Of a stretch of 64,000 bases of DNA, positions 1 through 48,600 are shown piece by piece; within the stretch, counting starts at the first letter, position 1, and each line of letters opens with the position of its first letter. A program made the position numbers and the translations under genes. The stretch comes from Apostichopus japonicus (Eukaryota > Echinodermata > Holothuroidea > Aspidochirotida > Stichopodidae): NCBI RefSeq assembly GCF_037975245.1, contig NC_092579.1:6633001-6697000 (forward strand), read 5' to 3'. The notes under the pieces are model-generated. The model saw nothing but the letters and a program-made list of their open reading frames with translations. It did no database searches and had not been told where the DNA came from.

Positions 1-3000
1 ATGGCCCAGTTAAAACTGTTAGATGTGAGAAACCGTTATTCAATTAAAACCGACATATGTTAGTAATACAGTAAGATGTGATGAACCATTAACAGTTACA
101 AATGTCCGTATGTTTCACTGGTAAGTACACCCCGTTAAGATGCTACAATTTGCAGATTTAAGCATTTTGCATTAAAGCGTGATCCGGATTCTGTTAAAAT
201 GTGCACGAAACCTTCAGTAGTGCGGTAAGTCCAGTCCATCGTTATGTATAGGTTTTACTATATACTTCCTTCTCAGTAGGAACTGGTCGAAAGTGTAACA
301 CTTGCTAAGAAATCATAACACACATCAGTTTCCCTTAATTAACGTTTACTACCCTTAACCAGTTTTAACTGATAAAGCAGCGAGGATCGGTTAGCATGGA
401 TTGAACTACAACATTAAACTATATAGCTATCAATCGAAAGGGAACTTTCAAGATGTTTCGTAGGCTACATAATATTACATTGAGTCCAATACAGGAAACG
501 ATATGTTTCTGCAACAACTGCTGGAAGCCTAGAATGGAATAAACAAATCAGGGATAGGTCAAAGGGTACATAATTGGCACCTGCTTTTATTTTTCCACTC
601 AGTTCTCCAAGTGTCTCCATTGTGAATCATTATGATTATATTTACTAAAAGAGTAAAATGGTTTACTATGTAAGTTTTGTATATTCTTCTATATCTCTTA
701 ATAAACTGAGTTGATTGACACGAAGTAGTTCTATTTACATAATGCAATCGCTTTCAATTTCACGCATACGTTAGATATTTTACTTTCGTTTTAACCAGTT
801 GTTCTTCCTGATTTATGCTAGGTTCAGCGCATATGTACATCCATAGTTCATATAGCTAGCTATACCGACAAATCTTATGTATACATTAACAAGTACAGAG
901 ACAGCTTAACGGCCAAGAACTCTCAAATTAGCAATGTGTAGTTATTGCTACAGGTTTTGTGTTAAACCTTATCACTTCATACTGCGAATGAGTATTTTAT
1001 GAACGGAATTGCAAATTTCTTCTAAAGGTGTTTTCATCTTTATGATAACAGTCGTCCGGCGGGCAAGAGTTACTCCTAACTGTCATATAAGATAACCAAC
1101 GGTAAGATGATATGAAATATTTTATGTTGCACTATTTTGTCTGCATTTGTATGTGCATCTGTGTGATTGTTTGTATGTATGTTGTTACATTTGATTGTAA
1201 AATTATTCCTTTTAGCTAAATTTATATACCTTAATAGTGCGCTTTAACCTGATAAGCAGAAAACAAGAACTCCAATTGAAAAGTATTTTAACTGTGATAC
1301 AGTACATATATCAAGCGCACTAGATTGACAGAGTTTATGTTTCACCATGGGGTATTAATATTACCAAAATGTTAATTTCAAAGGAAACTGTGTATATATT
1401 ATCCATAATGCGATTAATTCGGAGAATTGACTATAATCTATTGCTCATCAACAAAATAATCATCACTCTAGAACCTAGCAATGTATGTAATAAAATGTAA
1501 AGATTCGATCAATATGATCTGTGTGAGCACAGTAACATTTTCTATCGTTGGGTCAATAGAGGTACGTCATAACGCCCATTTCTTAATGACCCCATCCCCC
1601 CCCCTCACTCATAGAACATGGGTAAACCCGTTCACACACAGCTGCTTAAGATTAAAGAAGCAGCAAGACCAGTCTGATCTTTTCTTTGGTTGCTATCATG
1701 CTTTAATATTTTACTTCTAGCACTACACCTATAAAATAAAGGCTTGCAAAAAATATTCGATTCATTGAAGAGAGCTCTTGGTGTTTGAGCTTGTCATACA
1801 TTTTACCCTTACATTTTCTGCTACTCTTGGTGGCATTTGAAAATGATTTTAACAAAAGTAAGGTTTTGATATTTACACGAGTTATACTGCTCACTTTAAA
1901 GTATGAAGGGTAAATCATGCACAGACAAACCGGTAACAAAATAAATCTCACCTCCAATTATCATATAACAAAGCTTCAAAAGAAAACCCTTTTCAACCAG
2001 GACATCTAACAAACAGAGAAAATTGTTACTAGCTGTTTTTGTAATTTATCTACAATCTCGTGATCAAAATGGTAGATATGTTTGAATTTCTCCTTTAATT
2101 CTATATGGGTTAGTCCCGGACGAACAGTTTGAACAGTTAATGAGATCTGCGACGTTACTTGACATAACATTTAAACATGGTCATGTTGTTGTCCAACTCT
2201 TCACTTGTGGGACAAACTGTTTAATTTTTACTTCCATTATACACGTAAAGTTGTTCGGAGAACTAAACGAGGGTACCACGCTTACGACAGCTTCATAACC
2301 TGAACATTTTATGGCGACATAAAGTTTTAAAAGGAATGACTGGAAACGAAACGGACATTTTTTGTCTTTTCAATTCCATGTTTATACTTATTTGGTAATA
2401 GTAAAGGGACAACTTCTTTGTCTAACAAATTTAACGTTTCATGGCTTCATTCCAACCATGTAGATCCAATAATATGATGAAGTTTGTAGGCAAATTAGAG
2501 CAATTACAATTAAGCAATAAATTCAGCCAAACTATTATATATGTACAGTAAGCTAAGCTAAAACTGCATTGCTATGAAAGTGTGGTAGGTGTAACTTAAT
2601 GTGATAAGTACATTTTAATCATAAATAATACTTTGCTTTATTGTTCTAATGTGTTTTGAAGCAAAAATAACCATATAGCTGCTTCAAGTGGGTTTGGTGA
2701 TCATTTTGGCAGTCATTTCCCCTTAAACATTTATATAAAGCAACGTAAAGAAGACGCAACGAAGTCTCCGTGTATTCGTTATGCGTAGGGAGGTTATCAT
2801 TATCGTTGAACGAAATTAAAGAGAGACATAAACCAAAACATCATTATCAGACTAATTTATAGAACTAAAAAATGAGTTTGTAAGTCTCTCATTTGCAGAG
2901 TGAGAATTTAAACACATCTAAAAATGAAATAGGCATTAATTTAAGTTGATTTTGTTCTTCTTTACCCTCAGAGGTGTTTTTATATGTTGCATATGAAATA

Positions 3001-3799
3001 TTTCTAAAATGAAACTTCCACTTGACTGTGGTTTCACTAACAGCAACATGTATGCGTTTACCTTGAAAGAATTAATACAAAGGAAACGGCTTTCACTTCC
3101 TTGTATAGGTAGCAAAATGATATCCTACAGACATGTCTACTAAAGTTTAGCAGTGCGTATACTGTCTTTAAATATTATCTCGGTTAAGAATTGCTTTTGG
3201 CGATTATTACCAAACTGACCAAAAACAACTTATTGGCAACCACGCAATGAAGAAGTTTAAACTATACTATTATAATTTATCTTGGGCTAAACGGCTACAA
3301 TAGTGGCAATATAGTGTTGTTTTGAAAGTGATTTGTCATTTGTTGACTTTCCAGCATATTGAGCTGAATGGCTGATGAGCTTCCTATATCTTACACATGG
3401 AACGACTTAATTTCATGTCATTTAAATCCTTCCAAAGTTTGGATATTTGTTATATACGTTGTCCATTAGATGATGTGTATCAGTCTAAATACTCATTGGA
3501 CAGTTAAATGAATGTCAATTACAATGCTGTAACTAGATTGATCTCTTAATCAGACTGAGGAGTCTCCAGTGTTGAATACTAAATGGAATAAAACTTTCAA
3601 TGTGAACAGCACAATGAGCATCTCATGTATACATAAAGTGAGTGCATTTACTTTGATATGGTTAATGCATTAGTATATAGTTAATTTTGTTTCATTAGAA
3701 AGTATGCATTCAGTACAGTAGGTCTTATGCATTCGTTTGTCTCGTCGAGACAGTAACTGCTCAGTGAAATATGTAATTTTTCTTCCGATTTCTCTACAG
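1..3799. other. Upstream non-coding region, no gene seen
   Basis: No ORF here exceeds about 85 codons, and none resembles a known protein or has flanking splice sites that would extend it. The base composition is AT-rich and ordinary. The 5' untranslated exon(s) and promoter of the LRR receptor gene should lie here, because its coding exon begins directly after a polypyrimidine tract and a tctctacag acceptor ending at 3799. I could not place the matching donor with confidence. Confidence 0.6.
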
Positions 3800-3801
3800 C
3801 T

Positions 3802-6315
3802 ATGGGAATTGTCTTTAATGTGGTGATCCTAATTGCGCTCTTCTCCATTACCATCTTCGGTAGATGTCCGGATCACTCTACGGGGACGCTTTGTTCATCC
3901 TGTGAGAATAACACAGCAGATTGCAGTAACAGATGTATAGGAAACTCACCGTATTCTAATAATTACTTAACACATATTTGTGAAGGTATATATGACAACA
4001 TCGATCTTTCCTTTAATAAATTAATTCGTTGTGAATGCCCCGTTAGTGGTCCTAGCGTTATATCTTTAAACATATCACATAATAACATATCCTTCGACAA
4101 TTGCTCAAACTGGGAAGGTTACTGTGGATCCTTTTTTCGTCGCTTACGAACAATAGATCTAAGCTATAACAGAATACAACAAACTTGCAACGCCTCTGCA
4201 TTTGGTTTCATCAAGTTGGAAAGCGTGAATCTGAGTCACAACGAGATAAAATCTTTGGATAGTCTTCCTTTTGTGACCTCAGCCAAAAGACTGCAAACAC
4301 TTGATGTAAGTCACAATATGATAACATGTGTACCATCAACATTCTTCATAGAGAGAAATAATCTTATTAAAGTTGATCTTCGCTTCAATTTCATTCAAAA
4401 GATCGCATTACACTTTGATATCTCCGACCAACGGTTGTGTGATTCAGACAACAAATTATGTATAATCATTTCGGGAGAAATTTTGAGCAAATTAGACGTC
4501 TCGCTTATCATTGAAAAGAGCTACACATGTGCAGAGTTGAGAAACCAAACTCTTTGTGATGGTACTCTGGAATATCTTTACCCCAACTCGAATAACTTGA
4601 GTTGTAACTCAACGTCAAAAGTTTTAGAGAGCACCTTCATTCCTTCAAATATAGAAAATCAGTTAGCATGTCGTTGCCAAGGTAATATATGCGAACAAAA
4701 TGAAAGCAGCATACAGCAACCTTCATATATTGTATCTTGCGTAAATATCGATGTCACAAACGCACCACTTATGACTACAGTTCCTCTCACGACTCAACCA
4801 CAGGATACTAGTGAATCGACAACGCAAACAGTTTATACAACGTTGAGTATGAATGTGGTTATTTTTTGCTTTTTTTTCGTGGTCATTTTTATGGTCATCA
4901 ATATAGTATTTGTCTGTCTTTCAATCCAATTTGTCACCAAAAACGTATTAGAAACAGGGAAACATTGTCCACAAGATTCTCAAAACATTAATCCACAGTA
5001 CGGACCTAAACTAGGCATTACTGCTAACTTGGGATCGCCATCCACACTAAATACGCCGTTATTTGAAGAATATAATGAAATTCCTTCTGCTGCAGATGAC
5101 AACCTCCGTCGTGGTTCAGTTTCTGATGGAAAACACATGGATGAGTCCCTCGATCGTAGCGTAACCATAGAGCAACCGATAGATGTAGCAAATCTTGCCA
5201 GAGACGACGTTATGTGTTGTGAAGCATTGCCAATCGTACAAACATTACAGCGAAATCCATGTTACGGCCCAAGTGAAACTGAGATTGACCGATCACAAAT
5301 GAATATTGTTGATTTGTCTTTATCTACTGAAGATGCAGAAAACGGTATATTTCAAACTAAAGCTGATATAGAGCCTCGCGGCAATCTTTCATCACACTCC
5401 TCAAAACTGTCACGCGGGTTCGTAGTACCAGCTTCTTTAGTTATGAGCGACAACACTGAGGAGCTACCTGGTACTGTATCAAATCTTCTAAAAAGGAATC
5501 CATGTTACCAGGCAGATACATACTCCTGTAAAGCTACACTGACAAACAGTGAGAGTTCTCGTGTGACCAAAAGCATTTCAGAATTACATCTTAACGTTTC
5601 GGCAGCTGAAGAAGTAACAGAGTCAAGTATTTATTCCGAGCCTTCACCTCTTATTTGGTCTGAACATTCACAACATCCGTCTGATTTTGACCAAACGTTA
5701 TCATTCAAACAAGATCAAGATAACGATGTTGTTGACCATTTATCAGTAAAACAAACCCTTCAGAAAAATCCCTGTTACAGTTCGAATGTTCAAAACAGTG
5801 CCTCTTCGTTTACCGAACAACTGGATCCCGAAGAGAACGGTTTGGGACTCTCTGTTCACTCACCATATTCAACCATTGAGGAAGAAGATATTGACCATAG
5901 CAATGAACTACTTAATGAAGACCGATTTGCAAATGATTCTTTAAATCCAGAACAGTTACATAGAAATTCACAACATTCCTTTGATTTTGGTCAAACGTTA
6001 TCATTCAAAAATGATAAAGATAACGTTTTCGTAGACCACCTATCGGTAAAACAAACCCTTCAGAAAAATCCCTGTTACAGTTCGAATGTTCACAACAGTG
6101 CATCTTCGTTTACAGAACAACTAGATCCTGAAGTGAACGATTTAGGACTCTCTGTTCACTCACCATATTCAACCATTGAGGAAGATAGTAGTAGACACAG
6201 CGATGAAATACTTTATGAAGACCCAAATCCAAACCCAGAACAGTTAGATGAAGCTCTTAAAAATCCATCTGTTGATTGTTGTACGAGCAATGAGTCAGAA
6301 AAGGACCATTTGTAG
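3802..6315 (+). CDS. Leucine-rich-repeat single-pass receptor with NPxY-rich cytoplasmic tail
   Basis: One intronless ORF of 837 residues. A signal peptide (about residues 1-20) is followed by a Cys-rich N-cap and about six leucine-rich repeats of the LxLSxNxI type (about 66-210; examples IDLSFNKL, LNISHNNI, VNLSHNEI, LDVSHNMI). A Cys-containing, N-glycosylation-rich stem, a Thr-rich stretch (about 315-347) and one transmembrane helix (about 352-376) come next. The roughly 460-residue tail has no TIR or kinase domain. It carries NPQY at 397-400 and NPCY at 485-488, 566-569, 656-659 and 756-759, plus two SPYSTI motifs (Y689, Y789) that fit the ITIM consensus. NPxY is known to bind PTB domains and clathrin adaptors, so a role as an endocytic or signalling receptor is inferred. 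The start is supported by a signal peptide and by an acceptor site 2 nt upstream, which implies a spliced 5' UTR. Family identity beyond 'LRR transmembrane protein' is not recognised. Confidence 0.88.
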   Translation: MGIVFNVVILIALFSITIFGRCPDHSTGTLCSSCENNTADCSNRCIGNSPYSNNYLTHICEGIYDNIDLSFNKLIRCECPVSGPSVISLNISHNNISFDNCSNWEGYCGSFFRRLRTIDLSYNRIQQTCNASAFGFIKLESVNLSHNEIKSLDSLPFVTSAKRLQTLDVSHNMITCVPSTFFIERNNLIKVDLRFNFIQKIALHFDISDQRLCDSDNKLCIIISGEILSKLDVSLIIEKSYTCAELRNQTLCDGTLEYLYPNSNNLSCNSTSKVLESTFIPSNIENQLACRCQGNICEQNESSIQQPSYIVSCVNIDVTNAPLMTTVPLTTQPQDTSESTTQTVYTTLSMNVVIFCFFFVVIFMVINIVFVCLSIQFVTKNVLETGKHCPQDSQNINPQYGPKLGITANLGSPSTLNTPLFEEYNEIPSAADDNLRRGSVSDGKHMDESLDRSVTIEQPIDVANLARDDVMCCEALPIVQTLQRNPCYGPSETEIDRSQMNIVDLSLSTEDAENGIFQTKADIEPRGNLSSHSSKLSRGFVVPASLVMSDNTEELPGTVSNLLKRNPCYQADTYSCKATLTNSESSRVTKSISELHLNVSAAEEVTESSIYSEPSPLIWSEHSQHPSDFDQTLSFKQDQDNDVVDHLSVKQTLQKNPCYSSNVQNSASSFTEQLDPEENGLGLSVHSPYSTIEEEDIDHSNELLNEDRFANDSLNPEQLHRNSQHSFDFGQTLSFKNDKDNVFVDHLSVKQTLQKNPCYSSNVHNSASSFTEQLDPEVNDLGLSVHSPYSTIEEDSSRHSDEILYEDPNPNPEQLDEALKNPSVDCCTSNESEKDHL
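5668..6230 (+). repeat. 300-bp in-frame tandem duplication inside the LRR receptor tail
   Basis: Bases 5668-5930 and 5968-6230 align at an offset of exactly 300 bp (100 codons) with only scattered substitutions. Each unit encodes a DFxQTLSFK segment, VKQTLQKNPCY, SSFTEQLDPE and HSPYSTIEE. The duplication therefore copied one NPxY motif and one ITIM-like motif together. Earlier, more diverged NPCY sites at residues 485 and 566 suggest older rounds of the same process with 80-90 residue spacing. Confidence 0.93.
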
Positions 6316-6797
6316 CCTTCAAATTAATGTCTTTCCTTTATATTGTAGATAACATCTTTGCAGTAATTTATTACTTTACTCATTAATGGACGCAGATATA
6401 ACCACACATTCCATGATGAAGTGCATTTAGGTTTTAATCATAATAGATGAATAACAATCAGTAATATTAACTAATGACAACAAAGAGTATTTCGTTATAT
6501 TGGTTGGATGTTAACATTTAAATTACATATATATGTTATATATTCTTCCTTCTTTATTTTTGTTGGACAATTTGTACCAAAACCGTTAACTCAGCGAGTA
6601 GTGATGAAAGTTAATTTTAAAATTAATAATCCATTAATGATTAAAATGGATACATTTCGGAGTTTGAGTAAATCGATAGAAAATAAAACTTTTCTTCTGT
6701 GTATATCATCTTTGTTCTTGTGATTTGTTGCTATATTGGTTATTACTCTGTAATTATGGTATTGTTGGGATACTGCATTAGATGTGGGATGTTATGC

Positions 6798-6803
6798 AAT
6801 AAA
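6798..6803 (+). promoter_or_regulatory. Polyadenylation signal AATAAA for the LRR receptor gene
   Basis: Canonical AATAAA about 480 bp after the stop codon. It is the first clean hexamer on this strand beyond the stop, which gives a 3' UTR of about 0.5 kb. Cleavage site not seen directly. Confidence 0.55.
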
Positions 6804-7235: not shown

Positions 7236-10040
7236 AAAATCAGTGGCGTAGCCGAAAGGGGAGAGGTGGGTGTAAGTGGGGGGCGGGTAGAATTATACAA
7301 CACAAATGTAGTTAAACTGATGGAAATGTTATCTTAATGTTGCATTAAAGCCCTCTTGCCGAAACAATCATTCTAAAGACATCAACAGTCGAAAATTCAG
7401 CAACAATGTTGCAATGGTGGAAAAACACAGCATCCTTTTGCATCTAAGCACCTACCTACCGTTTTCACCAAATCACTAATTAGCCAAAAGGGGAGGAGAC
7501 AGTTCTCCTGCACTAAGGGACGTAGCTAAGGCCTGATGATTGGGGGTGGGGGGTGGGGTGTAGTCGCTGAAATTCCAACTGGATGGGTTTTGAAGCCAGA
7601 AAATTCCGACTACTGCATTTTACCCCCCACCCCCCCTGCACTAATCGTCAACGAAACGGTAAGTGTCAGTCAGACACCCCATCTTTCGCGACTGCACTTT
7701 GTTCCGAACTTTTTTCGATACATTTGTACCCACTGGCCCTCACTTCACAAACTTATTAATCTCTCTGGTTAGGCAAGTATGCAACTGAGTATAAGTTATC
7801 TGCTTGAAGGCTACATACACTACTAACTATAAAAGCTATGTTAACGTAACAAAGAGGATTTTTTTCAACAAATTATATTTGACGACATAATGAATTACCA
7901 GAAAATACAGTGCATTTTCCTAGCTCGCTTAATATAAAAAAAAAATGGGGTGGGGCTTTTTATCACTCACATGAACAATCTGCCTATCATCTTCGTTTCA
8001 TCAAGGACCAATAGAGTTCTTATAAATAAGTATGAAAACATACTATAAAAACATCAAGTTTTTAGTGGTTGCGGTTCTCACGTAGGCCTATATAAATTCA
8101 ATATGGACAAATTCGGTTACAAATACTATTGACTAGCATTGAGTGTTTTAATTGTATACCACAACCAGGAATTGCACGGGGAGGGGGCACATTTTGCAAT
8201 TGATATGGGGGAGGGTCTTTGAGAAATTTTGGAACAATTGAAGGTCTTAGATGCGATCTGGTGCAATGTTTTGCCAGTTTCATCATTATCATATGATATC
8301 ATATTATCAACGATTTTGTTTCCGGTTTGAATTATTCTTTTACATATTACATCAGAAAGACAAACATATATTGCTCTTTTACATATTTTTCCAGTAGGAT
8401 GATTCTTGTTTATTGTCCAATGTCTGGACTTTAATACATTTGACGAACTTAGCAGATGGACAATGCTAATTTTCATATTTAGCAGTGTAATAATTATTTA
8501 AATATATATAGAAAGTGCATATCACGTACGATTGCTAGCTTAGCTTCATAACATGCTATCCGTGCAACAACTTATGACGAATCATAAAGGATGAGAACGA
8601 ACGTTGTCGTCATCGTTGTGCATACGGTTCGTGACTGCGGTTAGATAGGCTATATGTTTTTTCAAGGGCGTAGGAACCGGGGGCTGGGATGGCGCCAGCC
8701 CCCCCCCAGTGAAAAATGTGGAGGGGCGGTAGTATCATTCCGCCCCCCCCCCCCCCGGCTTCGCAAGTCAGAAAACTCCTTTTTCATTTCGAAATGAGAA
8801 AAAAAATCTCATTTGGAGCACCAAATTGCATCTAAGACCTGGTGAAAATACAAAATTAAGTTTACAAAATGGAGTGGGTGTTGAAGTGTGCTATATTGCA
8901 CCAAATTGCATCTGAGGCTACCTGGAAATGAAAAAAATTGGTGACTGAAATGTGGGAGGGGTCTAAGGGGAGGGGATGTCCCCCAATTTTTTAGTTTTGA
9001 AACATCCTTAGATGCATTCTGGTGCATATTTTAAGTCAAATTTGACTTGCCGACGGATCTGGAAGTGGTGACTGAAATGGGGGAGGGGTCTAATTTTTAG
9101 GTTAAATTTTTAGTTTTGAAACGTCCTTAGATGCCATCTGGTGTATATTTTAAGTCAAATTTGATTTGCCGACGGATCCGGAAGTGGTGACTGAAATGGG
9201 GGAGGGGTCTAAGGGGAGGGGGTGTCCCCCTCCCGTTTGGAAAATTTTTAGTTTTGAAACGTCCTTAGATGCAATCTGGTGCATATTTTAAGTCAAATTT
9301 GGCACGGAAGAAGCTCCCGTTCTCCTTTTCTCTATTCATCTTTCCTTCTCTCTTCCCCTTCCGCTCTCTTCACCTTTTCTCCTTTTGCCGACAGACCCAA
9401 AATTTGCCGACAGCGACCAAATTATTTGGGGGTGTGACACCCCCCCCCCCACACCCCCTCCCCCCGCTCGCTATGCCCCTGGTAGGCATGTATGTTACTA
9501 CGATTATAATCGAGTTCACGGAGCTGACGAGTATCAAGATCTAAAGAGCACTGACAAACTACCATGCAAAATAACCAACAGTTTTTAACATATTTCGACC
9601 CTGAAAGAGGAGGGCAGTTGCTTCCACTGCCCCCCCCCCCCAACCCCTGGCTACGTCCCTGCTATATACTGAACTTACTTGAAGCTAGCGAACATGGTCA
9701 ACCCATCCAATAGCAATATTAGTACATAAATAAACCGAATTGAAGCTGGCGAACGTTGTACGTACAGTAGTTCTATAAGGCATTTTCTCAAAGTGGCAAG
9801 GAAAACGTGGTAAATATGACTGATTAAAGGTCAATTTTGACTGAAATTTTTCAATTTTCAGGTCATTCACAATCACAGGAATATATTCATGAATAGGCCA
9901 ATGAAAATAAAAGTGATAAAGTCGGAAATTCCGACTGTCGCACTCCAATTTTCCAACTATCGTCAGTTTTACCAAGTTTGGGGGTGAGACCCCTCCCCCC
10001 CCCCCAGACTCTCTCAGCGACGTCCCTGCCTGCACCTCAA
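7236..10040. repeat. Cluster of nested G/C-tract transposable-element fragments
   Basis: Several segments carry the same hallmarks: long runs of G or C, the phrase 'ttagatgcaatctggtgcat' and its variants, and CAGTGGCGTAGC or CAGGGACGTAGC-like ends. Such ends occur at about 7242 and 8667, and in inverse orientation at about 9645-9660 (ggctacgtccctgc) and 10017-10029 (gcgacgtccctgc). Inverted ends of this type are typical of non-autonomous DNA transposons, but no transposase is present. ORFs predicted here are low-complexity readings of the poly-C and poly-G tracts and are not credible genes. Exact element boundaries are uncertain because the copies appear nested. Confidence 0.6.
8925..9300. 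repeat. Three-copy direct repeat within the G/C-tract element
   Basis: The sequence 'ccttagatgc...tctggtg...attttaagtcaaattt' recurs at about 9006, 9125 and 9264 (spacing 119 and 139 bp). The associated 'gtggtgactgaaatg' module recurs at about 8940, 9066 and 9185. A further diverged copy of the core lies at about 8225-8275. Either this is the internal sub-repeat of a transposon or it arose by replication slippage. Confidence 0.7.
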
Positions 10041-13269: not shown

Positions 13270-13278
13270 TAAACAGCA

Positions 13279-16219
13279 ATGGAATCACAAGGAGGAAATT
13301 TTGAACTTCACAGGCAAGGAGACAATCGGTCACTTAAACAGGAGATATTAGAGCTAGTGATGGGAGCAGGAGAATATATTACGGAAACATTCAACTTGCA
13401 AGAATACACAGATAACGCCAAGAACTTTATTCGGACGAATCCCTTCATTTCCAGTTTCCTCGCCATCTCTTTAGCCACCTGCCTTATTCCAGTTCTGACC
13501 TTCCTCATCTTTGCATTCTCTACTCTGTTTGTTTCTCTGGTCATTCTTTTATTGATTGCAGGTGAGTTTTTAAGATTTAAAGGTCTGTTTACACAGTGCG
13601 AGTATGAGTGCGTGGTCCAACACAGCGCTCTCATTTGATCTGTTTTGTAAATGTGGATCAGTTCCAGGGATTTGAACCCCGCCATAGCCTAGGACCAGCA
13701 AGGTATCCGACCCCATACTCAGAGTCGAATCCAGCTCTGGATCGACTTTGTTTGTGGCAGCTATTTGAGATTTGCATCTTTATCATATAGACAAGTGATG
13801 TTGGTTGGGTTTGCTTCTCCTTTGAGATAAAAAATGTCAAGTTTTTGCTTTAAATACTGATATTAACAGAGAATAATATAGAGGTGTCAGTTAAAATTCA
13901 TATAAACCTTCACAGTGTGGTAAAGTATGTAGTATTAGAACGGCTTGAACTCATTTTTAAAGCTCGATGAGTTATTCAGTAGTGATTACCAGTGCTGTGG
14001 CCGAGTGGATAAAGGCGGTGGCATTTGAAGCAACGAGGCTTAGCAATGGGGAGGTTCGGGTTCGATTCCCGGCCAGGTCATAGTAAGGTGGGTTTTTTCA
14101 TCCAAGAGCAATCTACGGTCTTCCCATCGGAAATGACTTTCTAACATTGAAAAGATTCCAAATTTGAGTTAAAATGTTGAATTGCGGGTTTCTTCCATGT
14201 TTGTGGTCGCTTAAGCATCCTAAAAATAGCTGCTGATTATTATAATAATTTTAAGTATTAAAGTTGGCCTGACGTTTCGATCCTAGCAGGATCTTCTTCA
14301 AAGGCTAAATGACTTGTAACTTACTTTTACACATTCTCTTACACAGGCTCTCTAGTGGATCAGCAGTTTGCCAACAGTTTCATTTTATTCTGATTATTAT
14401 TATAATTATAACTCAAAGAGTGAACAGTATTTAACAAAATCTTGTGTTAAAGTTGCAAGTTTGCCTCACTCCAAGTAAACTCATATTCTCCCATTATTCT
14501 TGGATACCCCTCAATCCAGGGAGCAACAATTCCCTTCTCACTCTAGGGCGAAGATCTGTGTGGATATAGTGGTAGTAAGTTGAGTTGAGTCTTGTCTATG
14601 TGACATGCTCAGTGATTAACCTCCGCCACGTATCACGATCTTGTGCAAGGTTCATTGCTTCCTCGAAATTGTTAATGTTAACGTCCTTAAATTGCGACTT
14701 TATCCCGGGCCTTGCTACTGGTTAGCAGTATGTCTCATTGCTTCTCTTAAAGCAACCTTTGCTGGAGCGTCCTCTTGGAGTCTTGCTACATGACCGAAAA
14801 ATCTCAATCTTCTATGTGCGACTATGGATGACCAAGGTGTTTGGTTGGTCTCATGTAGAGCTCATTGTTTGATAACCAATTGTTGTTGGATATTGTTATT
14901 GTGTGGATATGGCCATCCTAATTCAAGAGTTTGTAACGTAAAATTGATATTTAGACCCTCGCAGTGTGAAAAAGTATGTAGTTATGAAGAGTAATTGTAT
15001 TTTAATGCTCCACAGGTTATTAAGTAGTGATTTAATCTCCAAGAACGAACAGCATATTGAAGAAAAATATAGTGTTGAAGCTGCCATTTGTGATTATTTA
15101 CTGCTTTCTCTCACTGACAAGTTATGTTACATTCACACATACTTGGATATGTCAGATCAGTCTAACTTTGAAATCTGTGTGGTCATAGCCATCCTAATTA
15201 GAGAGAACTTGATAAATTTCAATTAAAATTCATATCTCCTTCACATTGTGATTGATTATAATGTATTAATGGTTTACAGATAATGGAAAAAAAAATTAGT
15301 GGAAATTGTAATTTGTTAAAGTTCCATGGTTCCTATAGTAGTGAAGTAAAGTAGTGATTTAAACTTCAGGAGTGAACAGCATCATCAGATTTTTGTGTCA
15401 AAGCCACAATTCTTGGTAGGTTGTCTGGTTATTCTGTCTCACTCTTAGCAGTGATGTAATATTCACACATTTTATATAGCCATCCCGAATGATGAATTGC
15501 AAGAAGAAAACAGCAGAAGTTTGGGCGCCAAACACCTTGTATAACAATTTAGGCTTTCACTCGAATTGGCTTATTATGATTCCTGTTTTTGTTTCTGCTG
15601 CCATTCAGGAGGACTATTGTTAAACAGTATAGTTAAGTATCACATTTCATTGTCACTTTGATTCCGTGACGCGGAAGAAGTCCATGAACTCACCGACGAT
15701 GATTTGGTCAATGTGCACACTAACAGTCCCCTTTAAATACAGTTGTACACACAATGCTTCATTGTATTGATACAGTATTACCCAACTGTTTTACAGTCAA
15801 AAAGGTCAGAAGTTGTTTGCACTGAGGCAGTCAAGGAGTTCACTTGCAGTTTCATATAATTTGAGAATGACTCCTCACAAATTCACTCTCTTTCTCTCTT
15901 CTATTTTTATCTAATTTCATTTTCAACATTTTAAGTAATTTCCTCTTTCTATTTTGTATGTTTCCCTTCGACAGGTTCAATCATATCCTTCGCTGGACTT
16001 GTGCTTCTCTTTGTGCTAGGGGGATGTCTGACATTTTCGTTCGGTACGTCGGTCGCCATGGCTTTGACCTTCAGAGTAGTCTCCGCTTTGTTGAATATGT
16101 TTCAGCGAGGTCAGTCTAGCAAATTATCTAGCCAACCAACCCCTGGGATTCTGGTCTCAAATTTGTCTTCAAAATCAGACAGTGGCAGACAGGAATCGGA
16201 TGAATCCAAAGAAAAGTGA
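13279..16219 (+). CDS. LDAF1: Promethin / lipid droplet assembly factor 1 (two coding exons)
   Basis: The coding exons are 13279-13561 (donor gtgagt) and 15975-16219 (acceptor cgacag), joined in phase 1 to give 175 residues; the vertebrate protein is about 160. The N-terminus is hydrophilic with an amphipathic segment (about 20-48). A very hydrophobic block (about 53-140) can form two re-entrant or hairpin membrane segments, and the tail is Ser-rich and charged (ends SDESKEK). This organisation and the TNPFISSF / CLIPVLTFLIF segment match promethin. The known role is an ER-membrane partner of seipin that marks sites of lipid droplet formation. The acceptor cattttcag at 13261-13269 lies 9 nt before ATG, so the 5' UTR is spliced. 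The single intron falls inside the hydrophobic block and carries SINE, foldback and LINE debris. An ATG-initiated readthrough of exon 1 into the intron (to 13638) is an artefact. Confidence 0.87.
13571..13750 (-). repeat. Possible short interspersed element with tRNA-like B box
   Basis: On the minus strand a B-box-like GGTTCAAATCC lies at about 13668-13678, inside the LDAF1 intron. The flank GGTCTGTTTACACAG (13580-13594) resembles the inverse of tgtaaacagggcc at about 56738-56750, which may be an element end. No convincing A box was found. Weak evidence only. Confidence 0.3.
13993..14165 (+). mobile_element. tRNA-derived SINE in the LDAF1 intron
   Basis: Pol III A box TGGCCGAGTGG (13998-14008) and B box GGTTCGATTCC (14059-14069) are spaced as in tRNA genes of the long variable-arm type (Ser/Leu class). 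They are followed by an unrelated tail with a T-run. The acceptor-stem halves do not pair well and a proper anticodon loop cannot be folded, so this is a SINE head rather than a functional tRNA gene. The 3' end is estimated. Confidence 0.72.
14262..14350. mobile_element. Foldback-family fragment (single arm) in the LDAF1 intron
   Basis: Contains the arm sequence 'ggcctgacgtttcgatccta' followed by gcaggatcttcttcaaaggc. It has the same arrangement as the elements at 16889-17110, 41050-41168 and (partly) 48103-48200. Only one arm is present. The internal GATCCT-AGC-AGGATC hairpin is intact. Confidence 0.7.
14596..14840 (-). pseudogene. Broken C-terminal fragment of a LINE reverse-transcriptase ORF
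   Basis: Read on the minus strand from about 14840, one frame gives VAHRRLRFFGHVARLQEDAP followed by AKVALREAMRHTANQ and then a stop. The adjoining sequence continues in another frame with EEAMNLAQDRDTWRRLITEH and ends at a stop at 14596-14598. The RRLRFFGHVAR and ...AQDRDTWRRL signatures are typical of the extreme C-terminus of non-LTR retrotransposon polyproteins. The stop plus frameshift show that it is dead. It lies antisense within the LDAF1 intron. The LINE clade cannot be assigned from this fragment. Confidence 0.75.
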
Positions 16220-26700: not shown

Positions 26701-29700
26701 GACCGAGTAATATGCACGAGCGTTCAAATCCACTTCAAATTGAGATAAAAATATATGTATTTGTAATCATTTTGTTGTTACTGGTTAGTGAGGTGAGCTA
26801 TTAACCATCCAATACAGAAAATTGTTGTGTCCTTTAAAATTTAATGTAATGTTTTACAGTTTCACTTGCAAACCTCACAATTTGTTGCTTGGAATTTAAG
26901 GTTTCTAGTGCAAATTTAGTGACAGTTGACAATTTCAGTAAGGTAACCTTTTCTTAGGTAGAGTAAGTTAGCTTGGTCATATTGTGGCAAATTTTAGGGT
27001 GACTATTATTTATCTCAAGACAGTAATGAAAAATTGCCATGACCTAGGAAGAGGTCTAAGTTGAGGTATTTCCTATCGCCCTTTATGGGAGAAAAATTAT
27101 TTGAACTATGGTAATTACATGAAAATGGTAACAGCTTAAAAGTACCAAAGCTCAACCCCAATGTGAGATGAGAACTGCTGTGAACCTAATTTATTGAATA
27201 TCTGCCTTTCCATGCTGAAATTAGACAATCACAGTCGAGAAACATTTGGCATAATTATATTTAATTCAACTTTGGTGGAACTGCTTTAAAAACATCTGGA
27301 CATTTTCAAAAATTCCTCTAATCCACCCAAGTGATATTGTAAGATAGAGAAAAAGAGGACAAGCTAGCAAAAATTAGGACATATTGGAAAAAACCCATGC
27401 AAATTCAACACATATTCACTGTAGCTAAACACCATTAATGAAATAAATATCTTTTTTCCCGTTTTGTGGATAACTTAACAGTAAATCTACAGAATTCTGT
27501 TGCGTGCATATTTTTTTTACTTACCTGGCACAGATAAGCATACATGTGATTCCGACGAGCTGCAACTGACAGCGAGTGATATTACAGATAGAGAGGTAAC
27601 GGTCAACGCAGCTGACCGCCAGGTGAATTGTCTGGCTGGAAAACTCCTTTAAGGTAGCTACCTCGACCAGCCAGTCCAGTAAGATGTACCGCATTGAGTT
27701 TGTGAAGCTGTGATGTCCGTTGAAGAGCGTCGGGTAGTTGATGCCGTATTTAGAAGACTGAAAAAACTTCCTGATGTTTGCCGTGACGATCTCGCGTGAA
27801 AGGTCACCAAAGTTTCCTTTGGCATATTCAGAGTACAGGCGAAGCTACAGCGGAAGTTATGAAAAAAAAGAAAAACCAATCAACTTAGAGTTATTCAGAA
27901 AGCACTGAGCAGTAGTTTAGTTTGGACTTAAGGATTTGTTGAACACTGTGGTCTCATCATAATGTAGTTGATGGTCCATTTAAAGGGCAGAGGGGCCACC
28001 CCAACAATTACTGATGGATGTTTCACCATTTAGCTGTTAATCTTAGTTGGGATGAATGGGGGAATAAATTCTTCAATCATAAATCTCAAATATGTCAAAG
28101 AGTTTCCCTACAAGCTTGGTTAGTTAGTTTATTTACCTGAGACTCCAGGCATCCAAGTGATGCTATGTCCCTGAGTTGACGAATGGATTCGAGCAAGTGA
28201 GCTGCATCTTTAGACTGATGGGAGAAAAATTAACAACATCACAAAAGTGAACACAATACACAACTGGAAACATATTCTTCAACTTGAAGAAAATTTATTT
28301 GTAGTGACACTTACATATTGCCAAACTTATATCATGTTAAACAAGCCAGCAGGCTCTTACATCAAAAATGCTACAAAAATATATTAAAAATTTATTTTAA
28401 GAGATTATGCAACATTTGATTATCATCTTAATTTGTTTTCCGAAACAGAGGCCTCACTGAACACACAGGACGTCCTCACAGACAATGAGGGCCCATTGGG
28501 TAGAGGGTTGGACACCTGTGGCTTCAACATATTCCCAGGTCTGCCAAAGGAGCTAATTATCAGTAAGAAATTCTTCTCTCATTGTTCTTAAATATTTGCC
28601 CCCGAACCCTCAATAACAGATCACAAACTAACACCTATCCCACAGTTGGTATTTAGCCAGAGCTAGTCCTTGCTAATGCCCCCCGCCCCCTCCCCAAAAC
28701 ATCAAGCATTAATACTGCACAAAACCTATCTGAGATGACCACCTGTCTTCCCACAGCTGGTATTTACCCAGAGATAGTCCTTGGCCTCCCCCCTCCCCCC
28801 ATCCCACTCCCTACCTGCACAGAAACCTACCTGAGATGACCACCTGTCTTCCCACAGCTGGTATTTAGCCAGAGCTAGTCCTTGGTCAGCTGCTTGCTGG
28901 TACCATTGACGAATGGTATCATCCTTGTCATCACCATCCTGAAAGGAAACAATCATTGTACCAGTTAGAGTACCATGTTAGAGTAAACTGCAAAGGAAGA
29001 GGAAGCCCTGGACAAATATACTCTAGGCATCTTATGATCTTTCAGTTGAGTTGTGCACCAATTGATGGTAGCGAAGGTGTTACTCACCATCAATGTAGTA
29101 ATGTATGTGAATAGAGTTCAAGCATACCTCACATGAGTAATAAAATCTCATTATAGGTACACTTCATGTGTTGCACTTTTGCAAGTGCTGAATATTATCA
29201 AAACACACTGAAGTATAACCAATACTAGCGCTATAAACCTTGTTGATATTTACCTCGAGGTAACTTTGAATCTTAGCCATACTGAATAGTACTGATGGGT
29301 TGAGAGCCTGCAAAGGGAAACAAAATCAAATAAAGTGAGGTAAGTTTCCATTATGATTAATCAGTATGAAAAACAAATGGTAAAAAATAACTGCAAACAT
29401 ATCCTTTTCATATACATTTTAGACAATGGCTTATTCTCCCTCAAGAAGGCCCAATATCTATATCAGATCTTCTATCAATGCCCAGCTTTACAATTAATAT
29501 AGTAAATGGGGGACTTTGAAACAACAGCTGCAAGTCAAAACGACAATGCATTAATTCAGAAAGGAAAAACTACAAAAAATTCATGGTTACCTATTTTATC
29601 ATAGAAAAGTATGTTAGTATAAAAAAATTGCAGGGAATTTTCCAGACCTATATAGTCCATACAGTATACATTAAATTTTCAAAGTTTTGACAGGAGTATA

Positions 29701-33646: not shown

Positions 33647-36600
33647 ATGGGTGGGACAGATTCGAAGCTTAATTTCAGGAAGGCTGTGGTTCAACTTACG
33701 ACAAAAACACAGGTAAATGAGCAAAAATGTAGGTTGCGCGAAACTAATTTGTCAAGAGACATCACACGACAACCAATACTCAATAGTATCACTGGCCTAA
33801 CCAATACTAGCCAAGCGTAGACCTAGTGTACTCTTATCAGTGATACTGCACTACAGACCACAGTTACTGTAATGTTGTTTAGCCTAGGTTACAATAAGAC
33901 CATGAGGCATGAGGCCTAGTATAAGTATAACCAACCCACAGAAAGGCATAGGCCAAATGATATTGAGCCCAGTGAAGCACTACTTCTAATCAGGTACGTA
34001 TTACTGAAGGAACTATATACTTAATCGACTGAAAATCCTACATTTACTGTAGTTTTAGTTTTAATGATGGTGGGAGCTATTCAATCAATTGTTGATTCAA
34101 TAAAAGATGGTGTTCATGCTTTACCTTATTGATATCAGTTCAATAGGTGTTGCTCTTGTGCTTATTTATCGAATCGTCAGTTTCAAAAACTTTGCAATAA
34201 GTGATATATTGGTACTTACTTCACCCATGAGATCCCTCTCCCAGGGTGTAGATCACACTACCGCACAATCTGCCCGGCACTCAAATATTCCCGAGTATAT
34301 CCCTGTAGATGTTTTGACTTTTGAGTATATGTAATATGTTTATTGTTTTGCAGCCTGTTGAAGCGGGAGATGATGCATTTTGGGATCAATTTTGGGCAGA
34401 CACTGTGACAAATGTCAGTGATGTATTTGCCCTGATCCCAGCAGCAGAGATCAGGGCTTTGAGAGAAGAATCTCCTTCCAACCTTGCTACACTCTGCTAT
34501 AAGGTATTTTCAATTCACTTATTACTTATTGCACTACTCTCTAACCTGTCTCACTCAACAATTGCATTTTCTAAAACAATGGTTAACAAATTGGTCAGAT
34601 GTGTAGCACTGTGCTCCTTATGGCCCAGTCCAATTTTCCTTTTTCATGAAAAACTGGTTCTCTATTGTTGGTATTTCTATAGACCAGTGTACGATGATAC
34701 ACGTTTGATTGATCAGTGCTGCTATTGTTACCAAAGTTGCCTTTCTTAATTGCAAATCATTATAAATGTGTGCACAGCAATGTATTTAATTAAATTGTGA
34801 TTGGACATAACAATGCGTGGAAGGGGAATTTGGGATATGATTTTTCATGTAAGTCTATCACTGAAATTTTAAACTAATTTGGGGCATAATTTGAAGGATT
34901 TTTAATCACTACTGTAGGCTGCATTAATCAGGAACATATTCTTCAGTGCATTGTCCCTGTTGGTTTTATCTCTTCAGGAACTCTTTTGGAATAAGTTATA
35001 CCACCAATGACTTTTTCCTCAGGTTATTTCAACATGTATGCAAACATCTAAAGCAGTATAGTACATGTCACTATGAGCACAGCAATATTAAATACATGTT
35101 TAGAACCAACCTCACATTTCTTTTCACATGTAAAGCAGCTTTTTGCTTCCTTTTCTGTGGTTTTCTCAGCCTCATAGACCCCACGATGCTATAACGACAT
35201 ACATAACTAGCTTATCTATTTAATTTTAACTTCAAATGGTGGAATAAAATGTTAAAAATTTACAACTTTGAACGTTGTGTTTTTCAATGGATCGCAATAT
35301 GAAAATTTAAATTCTATGAATGTCATTGAATAATGAGGTAAATAATTTTCACTTTGCCAGCGTCGTAAGCAACCCAGTACACCAATATGTACTACAACAC
35401 CATGCTTTATTTCTACACATTCTGTATGGCTGTGATACCGACGCAACTTGTTTGGATTGCTGTGAATGAATCTATTTTAAGCAACTGCTGATAAATAAAC
35501 ATGTCAGCTATTTACTGATTAGTTGAATTCAAACTAGTGTAATGGAGCACTGTATGCGATTAATTTTAAGTGAGGAATTTGTCGGAAGACACTCTACACA
35601 TTATCTGCCGAAGTCCTTAGTTACTCGCCAATTAATGCCCTTGGCAGGGTAAAAAACTTGGCTAATACCTTAGTTTGCTGTTTTTGATGAATACATGTAA
35701 AAAAACTTTATGGACATGTCAAAAGGGTGGGAAAACTGCGACAAAACGCAAAAAAGCAGCTTTAAGAACCTCCTCTTTGGAACCTAACCTTCCTTTCATA
35801 TTTCAGCAATGTTTCATCATTGTTATTCACCACTTGAGCCTTGAGAATTGCTGACATATAGAGTCTGTAGGAGTGAGTAGTGATATTGGGATTTTTGGAA
35901 TTCATGAATCCAAACAGACATTTGCTTGAAGTCTGTTATGCATCAAGTTTGAGTTCCAAGGTAAAAGACTAGAACAATATTAAGTTCAGCTCAGTTGCTC
36001 ATTATGTGTGGTTGAACAGACCTGCCTGATCTGGAATTAGTCATGAAATGCTTTATAGAGTTCTGTGTAGTCTTTACATGAATTTTAACACCATCCGATA
36101 TGAAGTATGCATAATGCAATATATATATTCAGTATATTTTCGTAACTTTCCTCACAGGCTGTGGAAAAGTTGGTATCTGCTGCAGAAACAGGATGTACTG
36201 CTCCGAAGGAACAGCAAATAGTGCTCAACTCGGTTCGTCTCTTGACCCGGGTCCTTCCGTACATATTTGAAGACGCTGACTGGAGAGGATTCTTCTGGTC
36301 GACCCTTCCGGGACAAACGGTAAGATAATCTTTGTACAGCTGGTATTTTGCATTTATATTGTGCGGCTATTTGTCGTTAACGTATATTTCTCCATTCATG
36401 GCAAGATTAAGCAATTTAAAATTGCGAAGGATAATTAAATCAAGTCGTTCCAAAGTTGGAACTGTTCCATGGAGAAGAGTGTAAACCTCAGAGTTTCTCA
36501 AATGACAATATAAAATTATATGAGTTTTGATGAGACAAAACATTGAAAAACTCACAGTGTTATTGTTTTTGAATTACCAATTAGTTTTAGGCTCAGCACC

Positions 36601-45600: not shown

Positions 45601-48600
45601 CAGTAGGTTCCAACTGATGTTGTTTGTGATAACAAACATATTTTTGTGATAAATTAAAAAAGGTTGCTGATGATCTTTAATTTGAACAGAATTAAAATTA
45701 AAAAAATTAATGGAGCAAGCTTCCATTTGCTCTCATAATTTTTTGGTTTTTATTGAAGCTTCATGAGATAAAATTTGTTTTACAGTTTCGATATAAATAT
45801 AGCAAAATATCTGTTTTCATTTGAACTTTAGGAGAAGCCTGACGACCCCCAGAGTATTGACAGCTGCGAGTATATTTGGGAAGCAGGTGTTGGATTTGCA
45901 ATATCGCCCCCTCACAATGCCCAACTTGACCAAAACAGGACCGAGTTGCTCAAATTGCTTCTCACATGCTTCTCAGAGACCATGTACCTTCCACCAGTCA
46001 GTAAGTTACAGCATGTTGTGATAGCAGATAAATCATATGATAGGGGACAGTTCGTGTATTAGGTATGATGCTGACTTGTGTAGATTGTGGAAGAGTAGCA
46101 TCCTTACAAATTTAGTCATCTGAAATATATACAAGCAGTAATCTTGATATCATTTTCTGGAAGATTACTTCATTGCAAAAGTCACCAATTATGTTGTTAG
46201 AAACATTAGGAATTGTATAAACGGTCACACATGATCAAATTTTACCAAGCATTTTAAGGTAGCATACTCTATATAACTGCCTCATTGACTAACACATTAA
46301 ATCCTCAGAGTAATGTGCTCTCTAAGTACTTGTAGATATTCTAGCTAGCTAAGCCCAAACCATCACTGGATAGCTGAAATGTTGGCCATTCATGGCGCCA
46401 TGAATTTTTCGTATCATGACCATGAAGGTTTTCCCATGTTTCCTAAACTAATCTCTTTACGCAGTTGCAAAAAATTGTACACTGCTCTTGAAAGACCTAA
46501 AGAGGGTCTAAAATTGCCTCAATTGACCCATTTTTTTGCACCACATGTATTTCCATTTGTGTACTCTGAAATGCAAGCTACGAAAAGCCAGATCCTGTTT
46601 GATAACGTATCGAAAAGGAAGTTCTGTTGCTTTTTTGGCGTTCGGGTAGATAGACTCAATATGGAGTATGCCACCTTTAAGCCAACCTTAAACCCCTTTG
46701 ATCCAATGAGGAGTTTGTAACCTTATCATTTAATTTTGTTTTTGTTTCTTAGGTGATGCTCATTCCATTCCTAATCAGTGGATTACCTATCTATGTTCCT
46801 CTGATAACAGGTAAAACCTCAAGAAAAATCCTCCCTTTCTTGGGGTCTGTCATGACTTATACATTTATGAACACATATGTTAATATGTCATTTTGGTTTC
46901 ATATTATGCAATGATTTTGTACTAATGGTTTACCACAGTAATGAGAGTCACTGCTTGTAGTTGTATTCACTCAATCGATCGTCCATTGAAGTGCCTTTTT
47001 AGTTATTGAGAGGTGGCTGAGCATTTCTCACGCTGTACAAGTTTTTTCTACTAACATAAAGACAGGTTTATTGTACATTTGCTGATAATTCCCATTAAAG
47101 TATAGAAAGTAAAAGCTGTTTTGTTCTATCTTAGTTCGTGTCAGTATATTCATGGATTTATTTTATTTTCACACAGTGACAGTTTGAAATGTCACAACAG
47201 TTCAACACATATTCTATACTAATTTGTGCAGTAGAATGATCTTCCTTTAGGTCAAGAATTTAACACTGTGTCCATATTTGAAATCAAGCAAGGCAAAAAT
47301 GATGTCGTTTTGTTAGGGGATGTTATGAAACGTTGCATATTTATTAACATTTTACACAATTTCTGAGTATGTTACACTGTCTTCAAAATGTGTTCACATT
47401 CGTAATCTTTACAAACAAATCTTGTTATTTACCAGGTGGTAAATAATTAAATGTTTTTTATATCGATTGACTTGAAGTGACGTACATATTAATTAACTAA
47501 TTACAGTCTTGTATTAGATTAATTAACTATATGCCTCTATTGGTTACAGGCACGCCCTGCCGCTTTTCACATCTCTTCTCAACATTGCCTGTGCGTACGA
47601 CCCGGTTGGGTACGGTATGCCCTACAACCATCTGTTGTTCAACGACACAAGAGAACCATTAGTGGAGGTTGCAGCACAGATACTGGTAGTCACCCTAGAC
47701 CACACACAGTCCAGTCCTAATGCATCTACCTCTATAGATGGAATTGAAGATTCTGGAGAAGTAAGTGAATTACCGCTCTGCTTTTACCATCCTCAGTACG
47801 TGGGAAGTAACATAGGATTTGCTTCAAACTTTCTCACTTTCTCATGAGCAATTTGTCTGACTTCGCATCATCAAGGAAATAAATAAACGACTTTCAAAAA
47901 TATATATTCTCAAAATTCATGAATGTTATTCAAGATTTTAGAGAAGGGTAGGTTATTCCCTAGCCTCTTCCCTTAATCCTCTCTTTGTCCCTCTACAGTT
48001 AATCTCCTTCCTCTCCTCTCTCCCCTGTTGGTTTCTTTCTTCTCTCCTACCCTTGTCTACTAATCTCCTTACATCTATCTCTTTGTGTCCACCATGCTCA
48101 TTTACCTGTCAGTATTCTGTGCGTGTTATTGTCCCTCCTGTTACTGTTACTTGCCATTCAGCCTCTGAAGAAGATACTTTTACACAAGATTTTTAATAGA
48201 TAGGCAGATTTACTGAACCTCATATGAATGTGGGTAGCATTTTAACAAGTTGCTTCTTTAAGGGTTGAGGCAGGTTAGTTTTCTTGACTTGAGTCTTATG
48301 CAAGTTACTATTTTGACAAACTGGTATAAGTCATTTCATTTATTGTGACTTGATTCATAACTTGTTACAGCACTCACTCCCTGACTGAACATAGAGTCTT
48401 TGACTTGACTTTAAACTTTATTATCTATTGGCAAATGAGGTGACTTAAAAAAGCACTGAATGAATGTCTGCAAGTACCCTTATGAGTTTCACATACTGTT
48501 TCACTAAATTGCTCATTAGTTCCAAAACTGTTTTGTTAATTTTGTGGATATTCTGAATTTTCTCTTCAGCATGGCTTGACTGATAATTTATTCGTCAATT

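Follow-up and report, generated by a model that had tools for sequence, protein, structure and literature searches.

Nine tandem genes for leucine-rich repeat (LRR) receptors in the sea cucumber Apostichopus japonicus, the last of which (G9) lies in the 64,000-nucleotide window analysed here (C19:6633001-6697000), are suggested by comparison of their sequences to couple a common ectodomain to alternative cytoplasmic tails and to work in a manner resembling paired receptors, a reading to which a probability of about 0.55 is assigned. Paired receptors, i.e., receptors which bind one ligand and give different signals, are mainly known from vertebrate immunoglobulin (Ig) and lectin families, where they are defined by the split between immunoreceptor tyrosine-based inhibition and activation motifs (ITIM and ITAM), and clustered counterparts exist in Botryllus and Hydractinia. 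The array described here (C19:6546919-6639312, about 92 kb, all genes on the + strand, G9 being the 3'-terminal one) comprises three tail classes and two upstream classes, an exact ectodomain tract and genes of mosaic ancestry. A genome protein search (35 contigs, 671,581,487 bases; 54 of 215 first-look candidates were scored, and the counts are lower bounds) identified at least eight close paralogues of G9, all on the + strand and upstream of it, next to weak matches (E up to 0.01, 24-36% identity) in LRR stretches, which look like generic LRR proteins.

The shared unit was delimited by blastn, whereby each pair was searched from -3000 to +4500 of both start codons. G3A and G9C (the suffix denotes the tail class) gave a single high-scoring segment pair from -72 to +978, the main match of G3A and G4B covered -67 to +1108 and was accompanied by 35 bp at +1199 and by a downstream element of 459 bp (85% identity), and that of G5A and G6B covered -72 to +1078, with a further 59 bp in the part coding for the transmembrane (TM) helix. 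Beyond the stretch from just upstream of the splice acceptor to the TM, the A versus B/C pairs under study have very little DNA similarity, and the extent of these matches suggests that the shared unit approximates the ectodomain-coding part together with its splice acceptor. The downstream element, situated at +3245..3689 in G3 and at +2561..3018 in G4, is perhaps a dispersed repeat.

Within this cassette, G8 and G9 are identical over 1,024 bp, a tract which starts 6 bp after the ATG, encodes 341 residues and stops just before the TM, while 131 of 1,239 aligned sites differ in its flanks (about 10.6%; -800..+6 and +1030..+1515, the aligned block -1000..-800 with 138/185 identical sites being left out). 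At the flank rate, such a tract would arise by chance with a probability of about 2e-50 if sites are independent. The tails of the two genes part at about residue 502, and the G8 upstream region groups with that of G7, not G9 (tree support 0.995). The tract is most readily explained by gene conversion that acted on the binding part and left the two tails distinct. That it instead reflects an assembly or haplotype error is highly improbable: exact identity is indeed unusual beside flanks diverged by about 10.6%, yet N runs are absent in C19:6525001-6653000, long accurate reads would span the tract provided that this genome is the HiFi assembly of A. japonicus (PMC10344927), and the mosaic pattern is seen in G3A/G4B as well. 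This second pair possesses 260 bp of exact identity and a run of 74 polymorphic sites that was reached in 0 of 5,000 permutations of a Sawyer-type test (G8/G9, whose identical ectodomains this test cannot score, were tested through their flanks instead), and is 99% identical at offset 60-330 with unrelated tails. Further pairs with a global p < 0.05 were G1A/G8, G1A/G9, G3A/G6B, G4B/G8, G4B/G9 and G1A/G2B. In a tree of the first 350 bp of the coding sequence (CDS), G3A joins G4B (0.924) and G5A joins G6B (0.982), whereas in a tree of +700..+1000 the B genes join each other (0.999), as do the C genes (0.998). Neighbours that have nearly the same ectodomain but differ in their tails, a feature of paired receptors, were found (G8/G9, G3A/G4B), and in both pairs conversion is limited to the ectodomain.

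By tail class, the genes are arranged in the order A-B-A-B-A-B-C/B-C/B-C (Table 1). A genome search with the A tail returned three places, all inside the array; the B tail matches, within the array, the B genes and the hybrids and, weakly, the juxtamembrane part of the A genes; and the C tail returned three places in the genome, all in the array, being G9 itself and proximal-tail fragments of G7 and G8. Nothing else in the array matches G9 between +1506 and at least +9499. Upstream regions (-600..-300) fall into two classes, with identities of 0.80-0.90 among A-A pairs, 0.83-0.98 among B/C-B/C pairs and 0.36-0.43 between A and B/C genes, and are regarded as alternative putative promoter regions. 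Ordinary turnover of the array by unequal crossing-over and conversion, in which disordered tails diverge fast and ectodomains stay alike without any paired-receptor function, is a serious rival which we hold to be rather unlikely. Frameshifts interrupt G1 and G6 and an in-frame TAG near the TM interrupts G7, i.e., three genes out of nine, and the hybrids G7 and G8 have the appearance of crossover products whose joints differ; moreover, A and B tails may share one ancestor, given their weak similarity at the TM and juxtamembrane part (36-39% over 62-63 amino acids; with hhalign over the first 41 tail residues only, P 0.027). Turnover is opposed by the finding that within a class the tails are more alike at the nucleotide level than the ectodomains (96.2% vs 91.3% for G3/G5, where the G3A ectodomain is nearer to that of G4B with 93.2%; 98.1% vs 95.5% for G2/G4), which together with tail dN/dS values of 0.42 (G3/G5) and 0.56 (G2/G4) argues that the tails are not simply fast-evolving. 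The bounds of the G8/G9 tract likewise speak against it, as does the C tail, for which hhalign revealed no similarity to A or B tails (P 0.75 and 0.53). Close to the B genes G2 and G4, on their 3' side (+3472 to about +4173 relative to the ATG), lies a minisatellite with numerous shifted matches, most of them by multiples of about 15 bp.

For the paired-receptor-like working, it is suggested that neighbours in the array bind ligands which are identical or overlap and that gene conversion holds their binding parts matched while the tails stay distinct. The output of class A tails would proceed via SH3-type proline motifs and that of class B tails via PPxY and repeated tyrosine motifs, whereas the class C NPCY repeats, once tyrosine-phosphorylated, may gather several phosphotyrosine-reading adaptors. 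A wider proposal, which we put forward tentatively and at somewhat less than even odds, is that an echinoderm evolved a paired-receptor-like LRR cluster independently of the Ig and lectin families, in which a converted cassette, three unrelated tail codes (SH3-type, PPxY/YEYTI and phospho-NPCY) and two upstream regions would turn one ligand into several cell-type-specific outputs.

Several observations weigh against the idea of paired-receptor-like function. The ITIM/ITAM split was not seen, an ITIM-like motif (SPYSTI) being present in G9 only (pattern scan of nine tails with no ITAM scan as such, G6 read to its frameshift and the second frames of G1 and G7 used), and no short tail occurs among the nine genes. 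Some of the cluster may be undergoing decay, given its three interrupted genes. The tree of the first 350 bp places G1A away from its neighbour G2B, the permutation test yielded no significance for the run of G5A/G6B (global p 0.38), and the runs of G1A/G8, G1A/G9, G4B/G8 and G4B/G9, located at offsets 328-428 in the conserved LRR core, may reflect constraint. Finally, tandem arrays undergo conversion without selection too. As ITIM/ITAM pairing was not found, membership in the paired receptors is not claimed.

The G9 open reading frame is intact (837 codons, no internal stop) and the encoded protein possesses a signal peptide, an LRR ectodomain, one TM and a long cytoplasmic tail, which places it among the LRR transmembrane receptors in the broad sense. 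The original prediction of an LRR receptor without TIR or kinase was borne out, and its long tail is free of known domains, as Pfam places only LRR_8 and LRR_4 above cut-off on the whole protein and nothing on the tail alone. One sub-threshold tail match, to transcription factor DP, was dropped as an identity since it lies below the cut-off. No TIR domain was found by Pfam in G9, G3, G4 and G8 and no kinase domain in G9; as a consequence of the lacking TIR, membership in the Toll-like receptors was rejected. The closest solved LRR sequences are LRIG1 (E 7e-13) and a TLR4 chimaera (E 4.6e-11), both over residues ~59-204, whereas a PDB search with the tail gave nothing at E values up to 1. Single-sequence AlphaFold2 modelling of the ectodomain (residues 21-347) yielded no reliable model (mean pLDDT 33.4). 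Somatic assembly from LRR cassettes, as in variable lymphocyte receptors, was set aside as unlikely, since the germline exon of G9 is already complete. Among the paralogues, ectodomain variation is lowest in residues 121-180 (mean pairwise difference 0.06-0.10, i.e., a nearly fixed LRR core) and highest in residues 241-280 (0.35-0.40), and dN/dS between G9 and six other paralogues is 0.42-0.64 (G1 is not included, and G8 shows no differences from G9). The C-terminal cap (residues 221-340) is the most variable part of the ectodomain across the nine paralogues, with a mean pairwise amino acid difference of 0.28-0.40, and could be the part facing the ligand.

The five NPxY motifs of the G9 tail are positioned exactly as originally predicted, and all are C-terminal to the TM in the predicted cytoplasmic tail. 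In 100,000 shuffles of the 462-residue tail, NPxY occurred 0.054 times on average (94,698 tails with none, 5,171 with one, 129 with two, 2 with three and none with four or more). The five sites are not independent events, as those at residues 656 and 756 reside within an internal direct repeat of 268 nt (86% identical, spacing 300). Between the repeat units 3 and 4 the overall dN is 0.127 and dS 0.322, whereby the codon changes comprise 4 nonsynonymous and 9 synonymous ones in a core (5728-5883) as compared to 16 and 2 outside of it (Fisher p=0.0017, the core limits having been set post hoc). Units 1 and 2 resemble units 3 and 4 in LxxNPCY only: with this motif masked, their scores against units 3/4 are 22-24, as compared to shuffle means of 26-28. 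Taken together, the contrast within the repeat and this sole likeness point to selection for the NPCY motif within G9. An explanation of the distal tail as a young, gene-specific extension under low constraint, with the repeated NPCY as by-product of the internal duplication, is distinctly unlikely; it is consistent with the absence of relatives in the genome and array searches, with the recent 300-bp duplication and with a G8/G9 juxtamembrane dN/dS of 2.38 (56 codons, few changes), but it is at odds with a frame intact over 460 residues, with the contrast between core and remaining repeat (again with post hoc limits) and with a motif kept in units 1 and 2 though their surroundings no longer resemble units 3/4.

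What the serial NPCY sites would bind was judged from their contexts, which are LQRNPCY, LKRNPCY, LQKNPCY and LQKNPCY for units 1-4 and QNINPQY for the NPQY site. The general rule for phosphotyrosine-binding (PTB) domains and endocytosis, phi-x-N-P-x-Y, demands a hydrophobic residue at -5 from the tyrosine, whereas PTB domains of the IRS/Dok type are phosphotyrosine-dependent readers using leucine at -6. In the LDLR-type site FDNPVY, position -5 is hydrophobic (PMC2843621). The five sites of G9 carry N (NPQY) and then Q, K, Q and Q (NPCY) at -5, none of them hydrophobic, and the four NPCY sites carry leucine at -6. A phosphotyrosine-dependent, IRS/Dok-like reading is favoured on these grounds, as it fits better than sorting of the Dab/ARH/LDLR type. 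That G9 is a dedicated multivalent platform for PTB or clathrin adaptors, i.e., the LRR counterpart of LRP-type endocytic receptors, is considered improbable. While none of the shuffled tails reaches four NPxY, the LxxNPCY core was kept in the duplicate and YSTI and YNEI fit the YxxPhi pattern, the -5 residue is unsuitable, and both NPxY sites that can be compared are lost in G8 (NHQY stands in place of NPQY, and the first NPCY lacks its CY through a deletion of 12 nt). Moreover, internalisation of LRP1 was reported to be driven by YXXL and not NPXY (PMC11325810), so that NPxY need not mean endocytosis. An ectodomain of LDL-receptor class A repeats or propellers was not found in G9, where Pfam identified LRR families only. 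The predicted functional platform is supported as far as the core was kept after duplication, and it is weakened by the -5 residue and by the restriction of NPCY to G9: conservation, compared here among paralogues, does not hold, as NPCY occurs in one of nine tails (G6 read to its frameshift). Among the three genes with a C-type juxtamembrane part, NPQY is kept in G9 and in the interrupted G7 and replaced by NHQY in G8, the closest relative.

Table 1. Features of G9 (window positions) and tail classes of the array
Feature	Position or genes	Strand	Basis or remark
CDS of LRR-TM receptor (G9, class C)	3802..6315	+	837 aa, single coding exon
Splice-acceptor-like TTTCTCTACAG, 2 bases 5' of ATG	3790..3800	+	found in 9/9 paralogues; splicing predicted
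Ectodomain cassette in common with A-type genes, from 5' of splice acceptor to before TM	3730..4780	+	blastn
Signal peptide, residues ~1-20	3802..3861	+	hydrophobic N terminus; cleavage site inferred
G8/G9 identical tract (1,024 bp, residues 3-343), putative gene-conversion tract	3808..4831	+	
LRR region, residues ~66-200	3997..4401	+	Pfam LRR_8/LRR_4; similarity to LRIG1, TLR4 and other LRR structures
TM helix, residues ~349-371	4846..4914	+	hydropathy
NPQY, residues 397-400	4990..5001	+	motif scan; NPQY in G7, NHQY in G8
NPCY unit 1, residues 485-488	5254..5265	+	motif scan; CY lost via 12-nt deletion in G8
NPCY unit 2, residues 566-569	5497..5508	+	motif scan
NPCY unit 3, residues 656-659	5767..5778	+	motif scan
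NPCY unit 4, residues 756-759	6067..6078	+	motif scan
C-tail part without match elsewhere in array	5309..6315	+	tail searches of array and genome
Internal repeat copy 1 (unit 3)	5666..5933	+	direct repeat
Internal repeat copy 2 (unit 4)	5966..6233	+	86% identical to copy 1
SPYSTI	5860..5877	+	fits ITIM/YxxPhi patterns, pattern match only
SPYSTI, second copy	6160..6177	+	pattern match only
AATAAA polyadenylation-like signal	6682..6687	+	second AATAAA at 6798
Tail class A (proline-rich)	G1, G3, G5		PERPPK, PKLPKK, RPLPSVP, PIVPPK
Tail class B	G2, G4, G6		HIYESS, PPSY, repeated YEYTI..KTSSSDTE; G6 frame breaks before PPSY
Tail class C (NPCY)	G9		
C/B hybrids	G7, G8		C-type through TM and juxtamembrane part, then B-type; joints ~+1259 (G7) and ~+1494 (G8)

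Downstream of G9, short direct repeats of 84-94% identity with shifts of about 119 bp were observed (window ~8936-9103, approximate; G9 +5134..+5499, about C19:6641936-6642301). Further into the window, a Promethin (LDAF1-like) exon (13273-13635, +; Pfam E 1.8e-11) and a Cyclin N-terminal domain exon (27521-27844, -; Pfam E 1.2e-20) were identified, and three exons matching Hid1/Dymeclin (34318-34749, 47527-47847 and 49197-49526, all +) probably belong to one HID1 gene, as they follow the order of the Hid1 profile.

The claim that no LRR receptor of such design had been described proved too strong, as NPxY has been described in LRR receptors before (PMC2843621, PMC9303146). TvBspA of Trichomonas vaginalis, like the present cluster, forms a large LRR-TM family with distinct tail groups, one being NPXY-like and one dileucine (PMC2843621), but by its description it differs from G9 in belonging to the protist TpLRR type and in having a single NPXY-like site of the FDNPx[YF] type. 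SliTrk5 of the SliTrk family is an animal LRR receptor with a juxtamembrane NPxY (PMC9303146); as described there, it is neuronal, a single NPxY is noted and its ectodomain is built differently. LRP1 and the LDL receptor family, whose NPxY tails dock adaptors (PMC11325810), have the presence of NPxY in the tail in common with G9, yet they possess an LDL-receptor ectodomain, two NPxY in the case of LRP1 and a hydrophobic -5 residue in FDNPVY of LDLR. Toll-like receptors and LRIG1 are similar to G9 in their LRRs, whereas no TIR or Ig domain was found in G9, whose LRR stretch is short and carries a Cys-rich cap at the C-terminal side.

As for the cluster, the nearest likeness is found in the vertebrate paired receptors CD300A/CD300C, i.e., neighbouring paralogues whose binding domains are kept alike by conversion while the tails diverge (PMC12447643); these possess an Ig fold and ITIM- versus ITAM-coupled outputs, whereas the sea-cucumber genes encode LRRs with proline-rich, PPxY/YEYTI and NPCY tails and fall into two upstream classes. 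The fester/FcoR genes of Botryllus likewise form a cluster of invertebrate receptors, whose motifs are of the ITIM, hemITAM or core tyrosine kind and in which FF and FcoR lie side by side (PMC12065747), but according to that report they differ in having Ig/sushi ectodomains, a location in a histocompatibility locus and paired genes that encode different proteins instead of a common ectodomain with exchanged tails. In the open PMC literature, subscription papers lying outside the search, no description of an LRR paired-receptor cluster or of this sea-cucumber family was found, and in the H. glaberrima genome preprint (PMC13228809) the terms 'leucine-rich' and 'LRR' occur 0 times. Novelty lies in both the tail-swapping LRR cluster and the serial NPCY tail. 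If the paired-receptor-like working holds true, its occurrence on LRRs in an echinoderm would mean that the design of paired receptors is convergent, and the cluster would represent a compact natural experiment in which nearly one binding part is placed on three tails. The pair G8/G9, with 341 identical residues on different tails, would then allow tail function to be read without ligand differences.

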